From the IMG/VR virus record IMGVR_UViG_3300021083_000075, positions 1 through 46,204 of that record: a stretch of DNA of 46,204 nucleotides; one strand, 5' to 3'. This document shows, one piece after another, positions 12,632 through 39,357 of the stretch. The notes under the pieces are model-generated. The model did no database searches and was not told where the DNA came from. It worked only from the letters and a program-made list of their open reading frames with translations. This DNA comes from a virus. Made by a program: the position numbers and the translations under genes. Within the stretch, counting starts at the first letter, position 1. Each line of letters begins with the position of its first letter.

Positions 12632-13432
12632 ATGGCTTTAACGACTGGCGTTCTTACTTTAGTCAAGGCGGGTTCCAACTACGCTCAATTGTCGGCTGGT
12701 CCGGCTACTGGCGGTACTGGTCCGTATACGTATCAATGGTACAAAAACTTTACTACCGGCTTTTCGGCTGGTACTGGCAATTTAATCCCAGGCGCAACTT
12801 CCCTCACTTTCACTGACACGGCGCTTTTGCCTGCCACTGATTATTACTACTTGTTGATTTCCACTGATACTGGAAACGGCAATGCGACCGTTACCTCGCT
12901 TCAATTAACTGTCCTCACCGTCGCCGGTAACCCGGTTGAGATGAATCAGTTCGTTCAAACGCCGGTCATTGGTCAAGTTGACTATCCTCAAAATCCTAAC
13001 ACTGTCAGCGTCATCATGGATTCTAGCTATGGTACGTCTTTGGCTGTGTGCGGAACGGCTGTTAAACAGATTGCGCCTACGGGCGTGACGGCTGGTAACG
13101 GCGCTTATAACCTCAACACTCTCCCCCACGTTGTCCCTTGTACTTCTGCCAGTGACACGGTTCTTGGTTTCATTCAGTTCTCGATGAAAGACCAAACCTT
13201 CACCGGTGGTTCTCCGATGGAAATTTCTAAGACTGGTAACGCTCAATGGCAGATGGCTACCGCCAACGGTACTGCTGGCGACAGCATGCAACTCGATTTG
13301 AGTGTGCCGGGTGGATTGAAAACGGCTGTCGGTTCGAGTGGAGCTACGATTTGCGGTCAAGCGATTGATGCGCCCGTGGTTGGCAACTTGTTCCGGTTGG
13401 CGATTTCTGTTCTGCCTCACACCACGGCTTAA
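12632..13432 (+). CDS. capsid decoration/cement protein with N-terminal Ig-like domain
   Basis: A 266-residue protein. Residues about 5-95 form an Ig/fibronectin-like module (GGTGPYTYQWYKNF, then ATDYYYLLISTDTG). Residues about 105-266 are a beta-rich domain with GNAQWQMATANGTAGDS and a C-terminal FRLAISVLP strand. Placement between the protease-scaffold and the major capsid is typical of decoration or cement proteins. The same Ig-like signature occurs in three other virion proteins here. Functional naming is by position and fold impression. Confidence 0.65.
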   Translation: MALTTGVLTLVKAGSNYAQLSAGPATGGTGPYTYQWYKNFTTGFSAGTGNLIPGATSLTFTDTALLPATDYYYLLISTDTGNGNATVTSLQLTVLTVAGNPVEMNQFVQTPVIGQVDYPQNPNTVSVIMDSSYGTSLAVCGTAVKQIAPTGVTAGNGAYNLNTLPHVVPCTSASDTVLGFIQFSMKDQTFTGGSPMEISKTGNAQWQMATANGTAGDSMQLDLSVPGGLKTAVGSSGATICGQAIDAPVVGNLFRLAISVLPHTTA

Positions 13433-14690: not shown

Positions 14691-15443
14691 ATGGCTCTGG
14701 CGATTGGCGCACTAACTCAAGTTCTTGTCACGCCTTCCAGCGCTAGCCTATTGGCTGTTGCGCCTACGGGCGGGGTTGCGCCTTACTCTTATCAATGGTA
14801 TCGCTCAAGCCTTCCTAACTTTACTCCCTCATCGGCTAATCTGTTGACGGGTCAAACCGCTTTATCGATTATCGATTCAACGTTGCAACCTAACACCATT
14901 TATTACTACGCGGTTGTTGCTACTGATTCGACGCCTGTCACTCCGTTAACCGTTACAACTGCGATTCTTGGTATTTGTTCTGCCACTCAAGGCCAGAGCC
15001 AATATCAAGACCCGTCAGTTACGGACTTCATGAATTTCTTTTTCCGTGACTTTCCGTACGATACAACCAACAGCGGAAACTTTAATCTCTACATCTTGCA
15101 ACAGGATATTCTAAAGGCGTTTCAGCAAGCTAACGCTCAGATTAACGCTAGACTTTATTTGACGCAAACCTCGTACACCACGGGAAACCTTTGGTTATCG
15201 GCTCATCGTTTATGCACTAACATCAATAACAGTTCTCAAGGTATTAACGGTCAATTCAATTGGGGCGAAAACTCCAAGAGCGTTGGGCCTATTTCTCAAT
15301 CCTTCTCTATCCCTGAAGGTATCATCAATAACCCGTACCTGTTCTCGTTTACGAAAACAACTTACGGCGCTGACTACGTTCTAGACTTATATCCTCGCCT
15401 AACCGGTGGCATGAGTTCGGCGGAAGGATACACGAAGCCATGA
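14691..15443 (+). CDS. head-tail connector protein with N-terminal Ig-like domain
   Basis: A 250-residue protein. Residues about 1-95 are an Ig-like module (GGVAPYSYQWYRSS, later TIYYYAVVATDS) closely resembling the one at 12632. The remaining 150 residues start QYQDPSVTDFMNFFFRDFPY and contain the helical LQQDILKAFQQANAQINARL, as in gp6-type head completion proteins. Position after the capsid fits the first neck ring. It overlaps the next gene by ATGA. Confidence 0.65.
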   Translation: MALAIGALTQVLVTPSSASLLAVAPTGGVAPYSYQWYRSSLPNFTPSSANLLTGQTALSIIDSTLQPNTIYYYAVVATDSTPVTPLTVTTAILGICSATQGQSQYQDPSVTDFMNFFFRDFPYDTTNSGNFNLYILQQDILKAFQQANAQINARLYLTQTSYTTGNLWLSAHRLCTNINNSSQGINGQFNWGENSKSVGPISQSFSIPEGIINNPYLFSFTKTTYGADYVLDLYPRLTGGMSSAEGYTKP

Positions 15444-17176: not shown

Positions 17177-18637
17177 ATGGCAACAAGTTATTTTCCGTTA
17201 AGTTCAGTTATCACGGTTTCTCTGAGTGGTGGCTCTCCGGGGTTCGCTGGTTTCAATACCGGCAACTTGGCAATCTTCTCTGATGAATTGGCGGGTAATG
17301 CGTTCCCTGCTGGCGGGATTCAATACTACCTGACGCCTACTCAAGTCGGTATTGATTTTGGTACGTCCTCAAGGACTTATGCTTTAGCCAATGCTATATT
17401 TTCACAGAATCCAAACATTCTGGCGGCTAGCGGACAGTTAATCATTGTCGCTATGAAGGTATCTACTCAGACATTGCTTTTGTCTGGGGTGCCTGCCAGT
17501 GGTTCGACTGAATTAACGTGGGGTGGTAATTCGACTACCGAATTGACTTGGAGTTCAACCGCTTCTCAGATTCAGACAGCCGTTCAATTGTTACCAGGGT
17601 TATCTCAAGCTACCGTTACGGGAACATTTACTGCCAATGATGTGGCGATCACTTTAAATGGAGTTTATGGAGCGGCCCCCTCGCTATTCACTTTAAGCTC
17701 GAACACGTTGGAAACTTCGGGTTCTTCAGCGATCACTTTAACGAGCGCTACCAATGCCGGTGGCGAATCGATTACGAGCTGTTTAAATCGTACAGTGAAT
17801 TCAACAGCTTACGCCGCTGTTATCCCGAACGAGCTTTACGAAACTATTGGGGCTACGGATTACAACGCCGCCGCTTCTGCCTTCCAAGCCCTGAAAATCT
17901 TCTGGGGTGTGGTTGGTACTCTGGACTCAGAAAATACGAATCCTTCTGGCGTTTTCTACGCAAACATGGAAGCCGGAAATAACCAGACTCGTTCGTTGAC
18001 TTATCTCTCTCCGAGCGGTTCTGGTTTCCCTGCCTTGCAGTACTTGGGTGGATATTTCAGCCGTTTGATGTCCGTCAATTACAACGGGAATAACACTAAG
18101 TTGACCATGAACTTGAAGCAATTAAACGGCGTTCCTGTCGATTCTACAATCGCTCCGGGTTCGACGTTCAACGACGCTCAAGCCGCTGGCTCGGACGTTT
18201 ATGTCTCAACCGCTGGAGTGGCTGGCGTTCGTTCGTTCGGCGCTAACTTATTCGCTGACCAAGTTACGGGCCGTCTCTGGTTACAGGGTGCGATTCAAAC
18301 CGCTTACTTTAACCTGTTAGCTCAAACCTCAACCGAGATTAACCAAAGTCAGGACGGATTGAACACAATCACCGCCGCTCTTAAAGCCGTGATGCAACAG
18401 GGTGTCACTTGCGGTTATATCGCTTCGGGTGGTACTTGGAATAGCCCTGACACTTTCGGGAACTTGAGTAATTTCTACTCAAACATCTCGAACTACGGTT
18501 TCTATATTTACTTCCCGCCTGCGTCTCAGCAATCGGCTAGTAATTTGATTAACCGTGTCGCTCCTCTTTGTCAGATCGCCTACATCGAGAACACGCCTAT
18601 TCATACAGCTAGTGTGCAGTTAATCGTTCAAGCTTAA
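17177..18637 (+). CDS. tail sheath protein (DUF3383-like)
   Basis: A 486-residue protein with ribosome-binding AGGGG. The N-terminus (FPLSSVITVSLSGGSPGFAG) and C-terminus (YIENTPIHTASVQLIVQA) match DUF3383 sheath proteins. Between residues about 112 and 205 sits an added beta-rich domain (repeated ELTW strands, then VQLLPGLSQATVTGTF) absent from short sheaths. The sheath contracts to drive the tube through the host envelope, so the phage is a myovirus. The tube gene follows directly. Confidence 0.8.
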   Translation: MATSYFPLSSVITVSLSGGSPGFAGFNTGNLAIFSDELAGNAFPAGGIQYYLTPTQVGIDFGTSSRTYALANAIFSQNPNILAASGQLIIVAMKVSTQTLLLSGVPASGSTELTWGGNSTTELTWSSTASQIQTAVQLLPGLSQATVTGTFTANDVAITLNGVYGAAPSLFTLSSNTLETSGSSAITLTSATNAGGESITSCLNRTVNSTAYAAVIPNELYETIGATDYNAAASAFQALKIFWGVVGTLDSENTNPSGVFYANMEAGNNQTRSLTYLSPSGSGFPALQYLGGYFSRLMSVNYNGNNTKLTMNLKQLNGVPVDSTIAPGSTFNDAQAAGSDVYVSTAGVAGVRSFGANLFADQVTGRLWLQGAIQTAYFNLLAQTSTEINQSQDGLNTITAALKAVMQQGVTCGYIASGGTWNSPDTFGNLSNFYSNISNYGFYIYFPPASQQSASNLINRVAPLCQIAYIENTPIHTASVQLIVQA

Positions 18638-22049: not shown

Positions 22050-22980
22050 CCGTAACTATTACTTTGTTATTTCAACGAATGACGGAAGCCCAGCTATTAC
22101 CGTGGGCTATCCTCTAACTTTGGATTTTACCGTTTCAAGAAACACGATGGGCGGTATTCAAGAAGCGGACTTTACGATCTTCAACCTTGGAGAAAATACC
22201 CGCAAGCTAATCAATAAAAACTTCAATGACTTTTTAAACTCGCCAACTGTAGACGGCGACCCAATAACCAGAACTATTGATTTTTACGCTGGATACGGTC
22301 CGACTTCTAACTTGCCTTTAGTTTTCCACGGACTTATTTTTATTTGTAATTCCGTACGAGAAGAAGGTTCAACCGACTGGCAAACAAATATCACTTGCCA
22401 AGACCCCGGATTTCCAGTCACTACACAAACAGCTTTAACGGCGACGCCTAGCCAACAAGGCCTACCGTCTGTCAGAAACTTAATCGGACAACTTAATGGC
22501 GTTATCAAAGGCGGGGTTTACGGTCACGCTTTCGATTCAATCCCTAACTACAATCGGACAATAGCGTATAAGGGGGACTACCTAGGAATTTTAAATCAGA
22601 TCTGCGGGGGAAATCAGTCAGGCGGGAATTTCCATTTTGAGAACGGGGTAATCAATGTCCTTCTGGAAAACGAGGCATTTGATAACGATGGATTTCCCAC
22701 GATTAACTCTGACAGTGGGCTTTTAGGTTCTCCATACGTCGAACAAACTTGGATTTTCGCAAATATGCTTTTTGAGCCACGAGTGAAAATGGGACAAGTA
22801 GTTGATCTAGAAGCCACTGGAATTTCAGGGCTTCAAGGCATTAACGGGCAAAAGAAAGTAATGGCCTATACGCATGCGGGAACGATTTCGGGAAGTGTAG
22901 GCGGTAAGTGTCACACTCAAATACAGCTTTACGCCAATTTGAACAGCCAAGGGATTGAAATAGTAGGCGGTCAGATATGA
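22036..22980 (+). CDS. baseplate hub protein
   Basis: A 314-residue protein. TTG 22036 is preferred because GGAGG (22022-22026) lies 9 bases upstream, inside the end of the plug gene. The N-terminus (YYFVISTNDGSPAITVGYPL, then TLDFTVSRNTMGGIQEADFT and IFNLGENTRKLI) is typical of phage hub proteins of the gp27/XkdQ type. A C-terminal barrel includes VKMGQVVDLEATG. It forms the trimeric adaptor between tube and spike. Confidence 0.75.
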   Translation: MLKYNRNYYFVISTNDGSPAITVGYPLTLDFTVSRNTMGGIQEADFTIFNLGENTRKLINKNFNDFLNSPTVDGDPITRTIDFYAGYGPTSNLPLVFHGLIFICNSVREEGSTDWQTNITCQDPGFPVTTQTALTATPSQQGLPSVRNLIGQLNGVIKGGVYGHAFDSIPNYNRTIAYKGDYLGILNQICGGNQSGGNFHFENGVINVLLENEAFDNDGFPTINSDSGLLGSPYVEQTWIFANMLFEPRVKMGQVVDLEATGISGLQGINGQKKVMAYTHAGTISGSVGGKCHTQIQLYANLNSQGIEIVGGQI

Positions 22981-31187: not shown

Positions 31188-31200
31188 GAAAGGGTAGGTG

Positions 31201-31581
31201 ATGGACGACTTCCATTGGACTACTTTGCACACTTGGTTATCTAGCGGGGCTGGAGTTGTTGCTTGTGGTTTTTTTTATCGTAGAATTGCTGACATTGCGA
31301 GCGGAGCTTCGTCCGCTTGCGGTGAATTTATTTTTAAACACTTGCCGTTTCTTAAACCCGTACCACCAAAAGGGACTAACGCTCAAATGATAAAGATAGC
31401 AAGACTTAAGCAAGAGTTGGATGACTTAACCAGAACTGTAAATAAGGTGGTTAAGAAACTAACTAAGACAGAGAAGCGATTAGAGGCTTGTCAGGGAGAG
31501 CGGGCCGAATGTCGAGCAGATCTAAAAAACATTCTTTTCAGGGTAGAAGTATTGGAAGGGAAGCGTAAATTTGGACTTTGA
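31201..31581 (+). CDS. membrane protein with coiled coil in the lysis region
   Basis: A 126-residue protein; ATG 31201 has AAAGGG about 9 bases upstream. One hydrophobic span near the N-terminus (SGAGVVACGFFYRR) precedes a long basic-acidic coiled coil (IARLKQELDDLTRTVNKV onward) with CQGERAEC. This build resembles inner-membrane spanins or holin partners, and it lies directly before the endolysin-like genes. Overlap with the next TTG start suggests coupling. Confidence 0.6.
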   Translation: MDDFHWTTLHTWLSSGAGVVACGFFYRRIADIASGASSACGEFIFKHLPFLKPVPPKGTNAQMIKIARLKQELDDLTRTVNKVVKKLTKTEKRLEACQGERAECRADLKNILFRVEVLEGKRKFGL

Positions 31582-32128
31582 TTTCGTTCCTCTGGCGGAC
31601 TTAGACCTAAATGCTTTTGAAATGAAGGCTGTTAATGAAATCTATGCAAAGCAAAAAGTCAATCAAGCCTATTGGCAAGAAACTCCTCAAGTATTTATCG
31701 AGAATTATATTCGCTGTAGCAAGTCAGCTATTCCATGTAACGCTATACCTTCTGTTGTTATCGCTCAAGGTATCCTCGAATCGGGCTGGTTCTCGACAAA
31801 CTCGCTCTTTGGAGTCAAAGCCAGTGTGCTACAAACTCAGGAACATATTGGCGTTCAATCTCAAACGCATGAAGTCGTAGGGACGTTATCGATTCCGACG
31901 GTTGGAACGTTTTACGAAAGTCCTGGTGTGCAGAATAACTTCGCCAACTATTACGCCTATATCTTAAGGATGAAAACGAATAGCGCTCAGTTTATGCCTA
32001 GCGATTATATTGGGTTTTTAAACTATCTTCAAAGTCCGTTGGCCTATTCAACGGCGGGGGCTGATTATGTTAATTCGATCACGGAAGTTATCCGCTCAAA
32101 TAATCTAACCGTATTCGACCATGCTTAA
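31571..32128 (+). CDS. N-acetylglucosaminidase-type endolysin (FlgJ-like)
   Basis: A 185-residue protein, TTG start overlapping the previous gene. Residues about 35-175 match the FlgJ/glucosaminidase fold: IPSVVIAQGILESGWFSTNS with the catalytic Glu at residue 70, NSLFGVKAS, and a C-terminal GADYVNSITEVIR. It hydrolyses peptidoglycan glycan strands. There is no signal peptide, so export depends on a holin. A second wall hydrolase follows. Confidence 0.8.
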   Translation: MDFDFVPLADLDLNAFEMKAVNEIYAKQKVNQAYWQETPQVFIENYIRCSKSAIPCNAIPSVVIAQGILESGWFSTNSLFGVKASVLQTQEHIGVQSQTHEVVGTLSIPTVGTFYESPGVQNNFANYYAYILRMKTNSAQFMPSDYIGFLNYLQSPLAYSTAGADYVNSITEVIRSNNLTVFDHA

Positions 32129-32663
32129 GCTTTTATTTCTGCCTTTGGTTTTTGTATTCCCGTCTTTCATTGATTCAGCTATTGCGCCTCCGAGTGCTTA
32201 CGTCAATCACTATCTAGGAACTAAAGCCTTGTGGGATGCAAAGATGGGGCTGTATACACCAGATGAGCTTAATTCTTTCGTGCAAGCCACGTTTTTAGGC
32301 ACTTTGGGAGAAGCTAAACTATGCAAGGCGCTATCGGCTATTTCATTGCTTGAGTGTGGTCCAAAAAGGCCTGTAAGAGATAAAACGGGTCATCTAGGCG
32401 GTCATCGTGAAACTATCCGTCGTGGCGCTAAAGAAGCGGGGATTAAAGAGAAATTCGTTTACCGAAACCTGAAACGATTCAGCCCTTACAATAGGACTCT
32501 CTCTCTCTCTCGACACTTCTCGATTCTATACGCTCATTACAATGGCGACCTTGAAAAGACTTGTCGCATTTGGAATCAAGGCCCTAAGTGGAAAACGAAA
32601 AAGGCAACGAGCTACTACCACGGGGTTTTAGCTTTCTCAAAGATATACGATAAAGTAAACTGA
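32121..32663 (+). CDS. exported lysozyme/transglycosylase-like protein
   Basis: A 180-residue protein. The N-terminus MLKLLFLPLVFVFPSFIDSA is a likely signal or anchor. The core has ALSAISLLECGPK with a candidate catalytic Glu at 78, GHLGGHRETIRRGAKEAG, then LSLSRHFSILYAHYNGD and WNQGPKW. These are the landmarks of SLT/lysozyme-like folds. It probably works in the periplasm alongside the glucosaminidase. It overlaps the previous gene by 8 bases. Confidence 0.7.
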   Translation: MLKLLFLPLVFVFPSFIDSAIAPPSAYVNHYLGTKALWDAKMGLYTPDELNSFVQATFLGTLGEAKLCKALSAISLLECGPKRPVRDKTGHLGGHRETIRRGAKEAGIKEKFVYRNLKRFSPYNRTLSLSRHFSILYAHYNGDLEKTCRIWNQGPKWKTKKATSYYHGVLAFSKIYDKVN

Positions 32664-32673
32664 CTGCCTAATG

Positions 32674-32700
32674 CCCGTCTACCTTAGATGGGTTTAGTTT
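32674..32700 (+). terminator. terminator-like hairpin after the second wall hydrolase
   Basis: CCCGTCT (32674-32680) pairs with AGATGGG (32686-32692) around ACCTT, with one G-T pair. TTTAGTTT follows. A moderate intrinsic terminator. Confidence 0.6.
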
Positions 32701-32917
32701 GTGGAAGTAATTCATAACGTGAGTATCTGAGCGGGTGAACGTAGTCCACTTTAAAAATTTTCCTGCGTTCACAGCCTTACTCTTGTGCGGGACCACAGGG
32801 GAGCTGAAAACCGTGAGCTACGTCCTTCATGGACATTCGACGGTTATTAAGCGAATCGGATGCGGTTTCCTAGGCACCTCGCTAAGCTGGGGTAATTTTT
32901 TTGCCTGAGGAGGCACT
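32701..32917 (+). ncRNA. candidate structured leader RNA before holin-like/patatin genes
   Basis: About 220 bases with no convincing gene but many pairings. GTGAACG (32735-32741) pairs with CGTTCAC (32766-32772). CTCTTGTG (32780-32787) pairs with CACAGGGG (32794-32801). AACCGT (32809-32814) pairs with ACGGTT (32840-32845), enclosing GTCC-TTCAT-GGAC. ACCTC (32876-32880) pairs with GGGGT (32889-32893), followed by seven T. AAACCG (32808-32813) could instead pair with CGGTTT (32863-32868), and TGCCT/AGGCA (32102+800 to 32115+800, that is 32902-32915) would bury the ribosome-binding site. It may be a terminator-controlled leader or a free noncoding RNA. Not matched to a known class. Confidence 0.5.
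32876..32902 (+). terminator. terminator-like stem and T7 run just before a ribosome-binding site
   Basis: A 5-bp stem ACCTC/GGGGT is followed by AATTTTTTT. It sits 16 bases before the ATG at 32918 and forms the 3' part of the structured leader described above. The placement suggests attenuation or the 3' end of a noncoding RNA. Confidence 0.5.
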
Positions 32918-33244
32918 ATGTTTGAATGGATTGGTAAAGCGTTTTCGAGTGTTAAGTCTTCGGTTGATGGTTTTTTAGTCGCTAACCCACTGGTTAAAAA
33001 CCTGCTTGATGGGGTTGTGAAGGCTGGATTAGTCGCGGGCTTGACGGTAGTTTCTTCTGCTCTTGCGCCTGCCAGCGCCACGGCGATAACCGTCTCTGGG
33101 ATTATTGCCGCTGTCAGTGTTGGAGTGAAGACTTACGCACAGCACCAAGCGGACGTGTATGTTCAATCTCAAATCAATTCGTTAGTTCCTACGTCGCCTG
33201 TAGTGTCAACGTCGGTGCCTGTTGCGCCGTCGGTTACTAAGTGA
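32918..33244 (+). CDS. hydrophobic holin-like protein
   Basis: A 108-residue protein with strong ribosome-binding AGGAGG. After an amphipathic start (MFEWIGKAFSSVKSSVDGFL) come hydrophobic Ala/Gly/Val segments at about 38-55 and 61-74, then a Pro/Ser/Val-rich tail. It overlaps the patatin gene by GTGA, so both are made together. Holin or pinholin activity is plausible; delivery of the phospholipase to the membrane would fit. Confidence 0.5.
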   Translation: MFEWIGKAFSSVKSSVDGFLVANPLVKNLLDGVVKAGLVAGLTVVSSALAPASATAITVSGIIAAVSVGVKTYAQHQADVYVQSQINSLVPTSPVVSTSVPVAPSVTK

Positions 33245-34161
33245 AGTCCGATCTCGCTTTAGGCGGGGGCGGGTCGTTCGGCGCATTTCATCTAGGCGTA
33301 CTTTTACAGCTCACTAACAACGGGGCTATTCCGGTTTCGAGTTTGTTTAATCGAATCGTGGGGACGTCTACCGGCAACCTTTGCGGAGTAGGCTTAGCCT
33401 TTAAAGGCGTTGCTGGACTTGAGGCAGTTTGGAAAGGTATCAAAAGCACTCAAGATATTTACGTCTCAAAAGACCCTAGCGGAATTCCATTGAATGAGAT
33501 TTTTGATTTAGCTTTCGGCTCATGGGACGGGCTTTTGAACGATGCGCCGTTATTCAAACTGATTCAGTCGCTAGTAACCGGAATTCCTTCTGTTCCTGTA
33601 ACGTCATGCTTTGTTGACTACGTTGACGGTCAAACTTATTTCGTTACAGCTTTAACGGACGGGACTTTCGTTTTAGAACACGGCGACGGGACTGTTGAAA
33701 CCTACGATCAAACTTGGTTGACTCAATATCAACTTTGCGTTTTGGCGTCGGCGTCTACCCCAGGTGGCGTGAATTCAGTTACGATCAAACTCAAGAGCAA
33801 AACCTTAACAGGCGCTTTTGATGGTGGCGTAATGGATATGATTCCTAACGACTACACGTTAAACTTAGCGGGCGGTTCAGGACAAGTGATTTCGATTTCA
33901 CTTACCGACCCTATCTCCGTTTATACCGGCGAAACGAACGTCGTTGGAACGCTCAATAGGTCAATCGAGCTTTTAACCTACGGACAATTTATCCAAAGCA
34001 GAGAACGGTTGAGGTCGTCTCAATCTTCGACGTTGAATATAGTTGAGTATCAGAAGCCCGCTCTTGGTGGCGACTCTACTCAATTTGTTTCTGCGATTAT
34101 TGAGCAGTACATAACGGCGGGTCAAACAGCTTTACCGGTATTTGGAACGCTTCAAGTTTAA
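33241..34161 (+). CDS. patatin-like phospholipase
   Basis: A 306-residue protein, GTG start in a GTGA overlap. It shows the complete patatin signature: oxyanion glycine loop LGGGGSFGAFHLG (7-19), nucleophile elbow GTSTG with Ser43 (41-45), VLASASTPGG (167-176) and the catalytic DGG with Asp194. Patatins are Ser-Asp acyl hydrolases acting on phospholipids. There is no signal peptide, so it would act from the cytoplasm on the inner membrane. Placement after wall hydrolases and a holin-like gene suggests membrane destruction at lysis. The last gene of the late operon. Confidence 0.88.
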   Translation: MKSDLALGGGGSFGAFHLGVLLQLTNNGAIPVSSLFNRIVGTSTGNLCGVGLAFKGVAGLEAVWKGIKSTQDIYVSKDPSGIPLNEIFDLAFGSWDGLLNDAPLFKLIQSLVTGIPSVPVTSCFVDYVDGQTYFVTALTDGTFVLEHGDGTVETYDQTWLTQYQLCVLASASTPGGVNSVTIKLKSKTLTGAFDGGVMDMIPNDYTLNLAGGSGQVISISLTDPISVYTGETNVVGTLNRSIELLTYGQFIQSRERLRSSQSSTLNIVEYQKPALGGDSTQFVSAIIEQYITAGQTALPVFGTLQV

Positions 34162-34183
34162 TAGCTAAAAACGCTTAAAATAA

Positions 34184-34217
34184 AGGGGTTTCGTGTAAAA
34201 GCGATAACCTCTTTTTT
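34184..34217 (+). terminator. intrinsic terminator at the end of the late operon
   Basis: AGGGGTT (34184-34190) pairs with AACCTCT (34206-34212), with inner TCG/CGA pairing, followed by a run of T. It ends the structural-lysis transcription unit, and a strong promoter for the next unit follows within 20 bases. Confidence 0.82.
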
Positions 34218-34230
34218 ATTACTTAATCGC

Positions 34231-34259
34231 TTGACACTATTAAACTATTCGTTTATAGT
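34231..34259 (+). promoter_or_regulatory. sigma70-like promoter TTGACA-N17-TATAGT
   Basis: A consensus -35 (34231-34236), exact 17-base spacer and TATAGT (34254-34259). It lies directly after the late terminator and fires into the recombination/replication region. Shares CGCTTGAC with the promoters near 35226 and 43322. Confidence 0.85.
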
Positions 34260-37365: not shown

Positions 37366-37593
37366 GTGATAAAGCCAATTAAAAACGAATTGACTCAAGA
37401 GAATTTCGACAAGATGAAATCGGCTATCACTATGCTCGGGCGGTCTTTAAAGGTTTACGTTAAGTTTTGTGACGGGTGCCGTAGACGTCCTGCTGAAATG
37501 GGACCGTGTAGGGTTTGCCAAGGTGCAAGAAGGTTTTTAAATTTGTCCAAAAACAAGCTGAGCAAAATCGAAAGTTTGAAAGGTGCTTTTTAA
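37366..37593 (+). CDS. small zinc-binding protein
   Basis: A 75-residue protein, GTG start, with CDGCRRRPAEMGPCRVCQGA (40-59), a DnaJ/ribbon-like four-Cys site embedded in basic sequence. It may bind nucleic acid. It ends two bases before the first structured repeat described at 37596. Confidence 0.65.
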   Translation: MIKPIKNELTQENFDKMKSAITMLGRSLKVYVKFCDGCRRRPAEMGPCRVCQGARRFLNLSKNKLSKIESLKGAF

Positions 37594-37595
37594 AG

Positions 37596-37674
37596 ACTCA
37601 GTGCGTCGCATAACTTTTGAATTCGCAACACTGAGTGGCGATGTAGAAAAGTACGTAGGGGAGAGTGCGACGCA
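37596..37674 (+). other. crossing inverted repeats before the lipoprotein gene
   Basis: ACTCAGTG (37596-37603) pairs perfectly with CACTGAGT (37629-37636). TGCGTCGCA (37602-37610) pairs with TGCGACGCA (37666-37674). The two helices cross, giving pseudoknot-like or mutually exclusive folds. Read as DNA, GTGCG-W-CGCAT occurs twice (37601-37611 and 37665-37675) as operator-like near-palindromes. The 113 bases from 37594 to 37706 contain no gene. Confidence 0.5.
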
Positions 37675-37706
37675 TTAAGTTTTTAAATAAAGTTAAGAGG
37701 TGATTT

Positions 37707-37859
37707 ATGAAAAAGTTAGTTTTGCTTTTGGCTTTATCTGCTTTGGCAGTTGGTTGCGGGAATCAGGCTCAACCGGTCGGACCGGCGATAGGTTCGGCGG
37801 CATACGTTGCGGGCGGTGGTGGTCCTACTTTGAACGTCGGCATAACGGTAGGTAACTGA
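37707..37859 (+). CDS. small lipoprotein
   Basis: A 50-residue protein starting MKKLVLLLALSALAVGCG, a textbook signal peptide with lipobox AVGC (lipidated Cys17). Mature part is short and Gly/Pro/Val-rich without charged motifs. The ribosome-binding site AGAGGTG precedes the ATG. Phage lipoproteins are often superinfection-exclusion factors or outer spanins; here it lies outside the lysis region, favouring exclusion or surface change. Confidence 0.7.
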   Translation: MKKLVLLLALSALAVGCGNQAQPVGPAIGSAAYVAGGGGPTLNVGITVGN

Positions 37860-38855: not shown

Positions 38856-39357
38856 CAAAATGGGGCGCTATCCAAAAGACCACCCTAGATCGGGTGGGTA
38901 CATAGTCATGTGGGCTTCTCAAACACTTAACTCTGAAAAGCTAAGACACCCTTTGATATTGGGGTGTTTGGTTAAGGTTGTTTGTGTGGCTCAATTGGTT
39001 GATTTCACTACTGGGCGTTTTGAGAAGGGCGGTATGCCTTTTTCAATGCAAACTATCGCTCACAGGGCCGGAATAACCGTAGAGCAATTTAATAACTTGA
39101 TCGGACTTGGCTTAGTCAAAACCGAGGTAGTTAATTCTGAGCCTGTTTATTCAATAAAATCGTGGAATGAACACCAAAACCCTAAAGATTCTGGAAGTGC
39201 GGAAAGATTCGCACTTAAAGAGCGGAAAGAACCGACTTTTTCTGATAAAAAAAGTGCGACTATCCAAGCATCATTCACCAAGCATCATTCATCAGATCAT
39301 CATGCAACAAGCAGTAAGTCGAAATATAATTCTAAAAGTCGAAAGGTAAGTGTATGA
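38848..39357 (+). CDS. putative replication-initiation/DNA-binding protein
   Basis: A 169-residue protein coupled to the loader. The first 110 residues resemble winged-helix replisome organisers: LRHPLILGCLVKVVCVAQL, PFSMQTIAHRAGITVEQFNN as a probable helix-turn-helix, then GLVKTEV. A flexible Ser/Lys/His-rich tail follows. Together with the loader it is the best candidate for origin recognition. ATGA overlap with the next gene. Confidence 0.6.
   Translation: MDNKMGRYPKDHPRSGGYIVMWASQTLNSEKLRHPLILGCLVKVVCVAQLVDFTTGRFEKGGMPFSMQTIAHRAGITVEQFNNLIGLGLVKTEVVNSEPVYSIKSWNEHQNPKDSGSAERFALKERKEPTFSDKKSATIQASFTKHHSSDHHATSSKSKYNSKSRKVSV

Follow-up and report, generated by a model that had tools for sequence, protein, structure and literature searches.

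Introduction

The holin genes S of phage lambda and 13 of P22 carry so-called sdi hairpins in their start regions. In phage T4, the SD sequence or the AUG of genes e, soc, 49 and I-TevI lies inside an RNA helix, and the site of gene e (lysozyme) is unmasked by late promoters by way of a short transcript (PMC3014915). A structured intergenic RNA, RCd22 or abiF RNA (Rfam RF03085), occurs in the lysis modules of C. difficile prophages, where it lies between lysis-module genes and transcription ends prematurely ahead of the following gene (PMC12373285).

Here, we analyzed a 254-nt, most likely noncoding intercistronic stretch (32664-32917, + strand), defined by gene coordinates and noncoding word usage, in a 46.2-kb IMG/VR virus record; the whole 46,204 nucleotides are referred to as the window. 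As with T4 gene e, read-through transcripts are predicted to hold the SD of a lysis-related phage gene in a local helix, but here no late promoter is identified inside the helix, the stretch is 254 nt long and it has no sequence homologue. It shares with RCd22 its place, as a predicted structured RNA between probable lysis-module genes, but matches no RF03085 and has no AbiF protein downstream. A hairpin also marks the start region of the 108-aa gene, as in lambda S and P22 13, although its identity as a holin gene is putative.

Results

The left side of the record carries terminase, portal and head genes, and the right side carries Erf, DnaC-like, helicase and methyltransferase genes. The region around the stretch looks like the lysis region of an uncultured phage. 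It contains a glucosaminidase-type endolysin gene (31571-32128; Pfam PF01832, E 7e-8), a 180-aa gene without a family match (32121-32663) and, beyond the stretch, a gene for a 108-aa hydrophobic protein without a family match (32918-33244, + strand) and a patatin-like phospholipase gene (33241-34161, + strand; PF01734, E 1.5e-10). The 108-aa protein has a hydrophobic middle and is putatively holin-like, judged solely by its hydrophobicity. The patatin-like protein of this late region gave weak PADLOC matches to phospholipase effectors. Weak PADLOC matches of the protein encoded at 31198-31581 to LmuB were set aside as probable coiled-coil similarity.

The stretch lies exactly between the TGA of the 180-aa gene (32661-32663) and the ATG of the 108-aa gene (32918), in agreement with an earlier sequence-only reading of this DNA. 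The same reading held that the genome otherwise overlaps its genes, which is overstated: about 20 gaps of at least 60 nt are listed with a rough gene set, by which 32664-32917 is the largest gap of the late region. The GC content of the stretch is 48.4%, above both the genome (45.1%) and the eight other gaps that we examined (32-45%), which would fit a folded RNA better than a decaying spacer.

The stretch had also been called gene-free. It is probably noncoding, but a 57-codon open frame, from GTG 32735 to TGA 32908 (32735-32908, + strand), crosses it; this frame had been missed because the earlier listing was limited to frames of at least 60 aa. The codon score of the frame falls at the 6th percentile of true gene segments, with a density ratio of 0.41, and at about the 79th percentile among spurious open frames; taken alone, it is ambiguous. 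No good SD precedes GTG 32735, where the ribosome site scores -2.3 kcal/mol (median of the genes, -6.0). Searches of Pfam, PADLOC and phage records gave no relative of the 57-aa product; we attribute a weak tblastn match in an Enterococcus phage record (E 0.3) to chance. Word usage was more decisive. In its sharing of 7-mers with the rest of the genome, the stretch is the lowest of 766 windows of 254 nt, none of 242 GC-matched windows is as low, and its value is about that of dinucleotide-shuffled sequence. The part covered by the frame falls within the lowest 1-3% of gene windows. The native sequence also folds better than synonymous permutations of the frame (6/300). Neither in word usage nor in ribosome site does the frame resemble the genome's genes. 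Together, the word-usage tests and the poor codon statistics and ribosome site indicate that the stretch is most likely noncoding and the frame probably untranslated.

The sequence contains all of the hairpins listed by the sequence-only reading, as well as the T7 run and the hairpin that covers AGGAGG. A 9-bp hairpin, GCCCGTCTA/TAGATGGGT (32673-32693, + strand; -11.3 kcal/mol), sits just 3' of the 180-aa gene and is terminator-like with a poor T tail (TTAGTTTG). It is followed by a 7-bp hairpin, TTGTGGA/TTCATAA (32699-32717, + strand), taken from the fold prediction. Further on are the helices GTGAACGTAG/CTGCGTTCAC (32735-32772; 10 bp with one G-U, and the only inverted pair of at least 10 nt in the stretch), CTCTTGTG/CACAGGGG (32780-32801; 8 bp) and AACCGT/ACGGTT (32809-32845). 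An 8-bp closing helix, GTATCTGA/TCGGATGC (32723-32730/32856-32863), was absent from the earlier list. The prediction is a closed multibranch fold at 32723-32863 (+ strand), hereafter the core, with three arms at 32735-32772, 32780-32801 and 32803-32852.

For the whole stretch, the folding energy is -86.0 kcal/mol (z -2.6 against shuffles, 2/200). The core, whose boundaries were chosen after the fold had been seen, folds at -47.5 kcal/mol (z -3.25), its centroid equals the MFE structure, and none of 300 shuffles beats it when energy and ensemble diversity are taken together. We then compared both with the genome itself. The folding of the whole stretch is matched by 2.4% of the genome's 254-nt windows and that of the core by about 1% of its 141-nt windows. 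Among 170 closed local folds of 100-180 nt, picked genome-wide by one procedure, the core is 20th, and the folds above it are mostly located within protein genes; the core does not fold beyond the genome's own background. Thus, the structure is well predicted and indistinguishable from background. Caution is needed in this genome, where hairpin lists and shuffle z values of about -3 are frequent: the selection-matched comparison takes away most of the apparent folding signal.

The 3' end of the stretch contains a hairpin, TGCCT-GAGG-AGGCA (32902-32915, + strand), that covers the 108-aa gene's AGGAGG (32908-32913). A longer helix, TCCTAGGC/GCCTGAGGA, of which the TCCTAGGC strand is 32868-32875, also pairs AGGAGG. 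The earlier proposal that a hairpin hides this AGGAGG agrees with the prediction, in which the ribosome site is paired within an RNA helix, as in SD-sequestering leaders. The predicted unpaired probability of the SD is 0.16 compared with a genome median of 0.42, the fifth lowest of 54 starts, with four genes having less accessible sites; with 40 nt of upstream context, it ranks 20th of 54. None of the other SDs examined is as strong as this one (-11.7). A masked yet strong SD fits a 108-aa gene that is dampened, not silent. The modelled occlusion of this site is moderate.

Upstream of this hairpin is a terminator-like stem followed by AA and T7 (32876-32902, + strand; stem 32876-32893, T7 32896-32902). 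The element is there as the sequence-only reading described it, but the stem is weak (-5.2 kcal/mol, G-U pairs included) and does not amount to a strong terminator. It forms without disturbing the core and can coexist with the SD helix. The proposed alternative AAACCG/CGGTTT pairing, the only one that we forced, yields -81.9 against -86.0 kcal/mol and is thus 4.1 kcal/mol worse. Because the alternative is clearly disfavoured, and because the SD helix and the terminator hairpin are compatible, the results do not support a two-state switch or attenuator: the forced pair does not provide exclusive structures of similar energy. A stand-alone RNA ending at the terminator also fared poorly, as the stretch has no promoter-like site and no homologue. 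The promoter scan found no sigma70-like site within 32664-32917, phage-specific promoters being outside its reach. Nor is a repeated phage promoter seen in the gap, as none of its 12-mers is found again in the genome.

Rfam, which had been suggested as a check, returned no family: there was no match at the gathering score for the whole window and none up to E 10 for 32500-33000. No tRNA or tmRNA was found. As DNA, the stretch has no homologue in phage or plasmid records, the neighbouring 180-aa, 108-aa and patatin proteins have none in the collections searched, and no phage relative of the patatin gene was found. The terminase has relatives at about 40-54% identity, which led to 65 records. 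Record-wide searches by protein and DNA, which were empty or at chance level, found neither the patatin gene nor, at a meaningful score, the stretch in any of the 65. Synteny with these relatives extends through the tail genes, and similarity is no longer detected beyond about 27.6 kb of the window; in three long syntenic relatives, the late strand of the likely lysis end has no gap of more than 113 nt. A covariance model built from this one sequence was confident only on the window itself, gave E 0.6-0.9 for other matches and found nothing in the 50 relatives searched with it. The lack of matches says little because no positive-control relative exists.

Several candidates were rejected. IMG/VR matches to three exact 16-18-mers of the stretch (40 loci) showed no identity past the seed and were taken as chance. 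Group I and II introns, retrons and type III antitoxins were dropped for want of a motif or partner protein. For a type III toxin-antitoxin or abiF system, we found no AbiF- or ToxN-type protein downstream, no RF03085 and no direct repeats.

Discussion

We propose, with a probability of roughly 0.4, that the stretch is an untranslated intercistronic leader in a late (lysis) operon and that its 3' hairpin reduces translation of the downstream gene. Regulation would probably be local, at the 3' end of the leader. On read-through transcripts, the hairpin at 32902-32915 and the partner strand TCCTAGGC would pair AGGAGG, and translation of the 108-aa gene would be lowered, not abolished. The weak stem with T7 may trim transcription slightly, and the larger fold at 32723-32863 may serve as spacing or stabilization, with no switching role. 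The noncoding word usage, the higher GC, the stable and well-defined fold, the SD accessibility and the T4 precedent speak for this reading; the unexceptional rank of the fold, the rank of 20/54 with 40-nt context, and the lack of an internal promoter-like site and of a homologue or covariation speak against it. It is tempting to speculate that, if the leader does mask the ribosome site, this would be another phage lysis gene restrained by mRNA structure, here adjoining a patatin-type phospholipase; the effect on translation and any role in lysis or its timing are inferred.

Almost as likely, the stretch is an inert noncoding spacer, such as a junction left by module exchange at the lysis cassette; the hairpins would then be incidental and the T7 stem a relic or leaky terminator. 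The core's rank among local folds and the least genome-like word usage of all windows are what such a spacer would show, as is the failure to find a homologue anywhere searched. An exchanged module is also suggested by the loss of similarity to terminase relatives ahead of the lysis region, and the three syntenic relatives have no comparable gap. However, phages seldom keep 250 idle nucleotides, the GC is above that of the other gaps examined and, compared with its own shuffles, the fold is both stable and well defined.

Translation of the stretch appears unlikely. A small gene could comprise the 57-codon frame or a 31-codon portion of it that begins at GTG 32813, a start with an SD-like GGGGAG (-7.5 kcal/mol), and its stop at the next SD would couple its translation to that of the 108-aa gene. 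In favour of this reading, no stop interrupts the frame over 57 codons, and its end is 9 nt from the ATG that follows, a spacing that is usual in this genome. Its word usage, codon score, lack of an SD at GTG 32735 and of a family match, and the folding in excess of synonymous permutations all weigh against it. The analysis does not favour a dedicated RNA switch or a stand-alone RNA, both of which are hypothetical. We regard as improbable a phage RNA, or a switch or attenuator controlling lysis, that ends at or acts through the T7 terminator: the closed core with MFE equal to centroid, the T7 stem and masked SD that come after it, and the similarly placed RCd22 of C. difficile prophages (PMC12373285) would suit it, but the disfavoured alternative pairing, a weak terminator compatible with the core, the absence of a promoter-like site and of an Rfam match, and folding not above the genome background do not. 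A new lineage-specific phage RNA, in which the 141-nt closed four-way fold would time lysis for the pair of 108-aa membrane protein and patatin, is likewise improbable.

Apart from the leader proposed above, the genome holds other segments predicted to be structured. Four in-gene folds (18446-18586, 22781-22918, 14876-15086 and 38881-39100), with z from about -4 to -6, are stronger than 32664-32917. A clearer attenuator candidate lies at 37596-37690, just upstream of a small lipoprotein-like ORF (37707-37859; z -6.2 in the 141-nt scan and -3.7 for 37580-37740). There, ACTCAGTG (~37598) can pair with CACTGAGT (~37629), and in an exclusive alternative GTGCGTCGCA (~37602) can pair with TGCGACGCAT (~37665), the latter followed by TTAAGTTTTTAAAT. 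In the segment 3' of the patatin gene (34162-34259), a terminator-like hairpin with T6 (~34184-34215, identified by eye) is followed downstream by a near-perfect sigma70-type promoter, TTGACA-17-TATAGT (34231-34259), which is probably the start of the next transcription unit. In the head region, the proteins encoded at 12632-13432 and 14691-15443 match the same stretches of relatives (L022 from 9606 on and L170 from 954 on), which suggests a common N-terminal domain.
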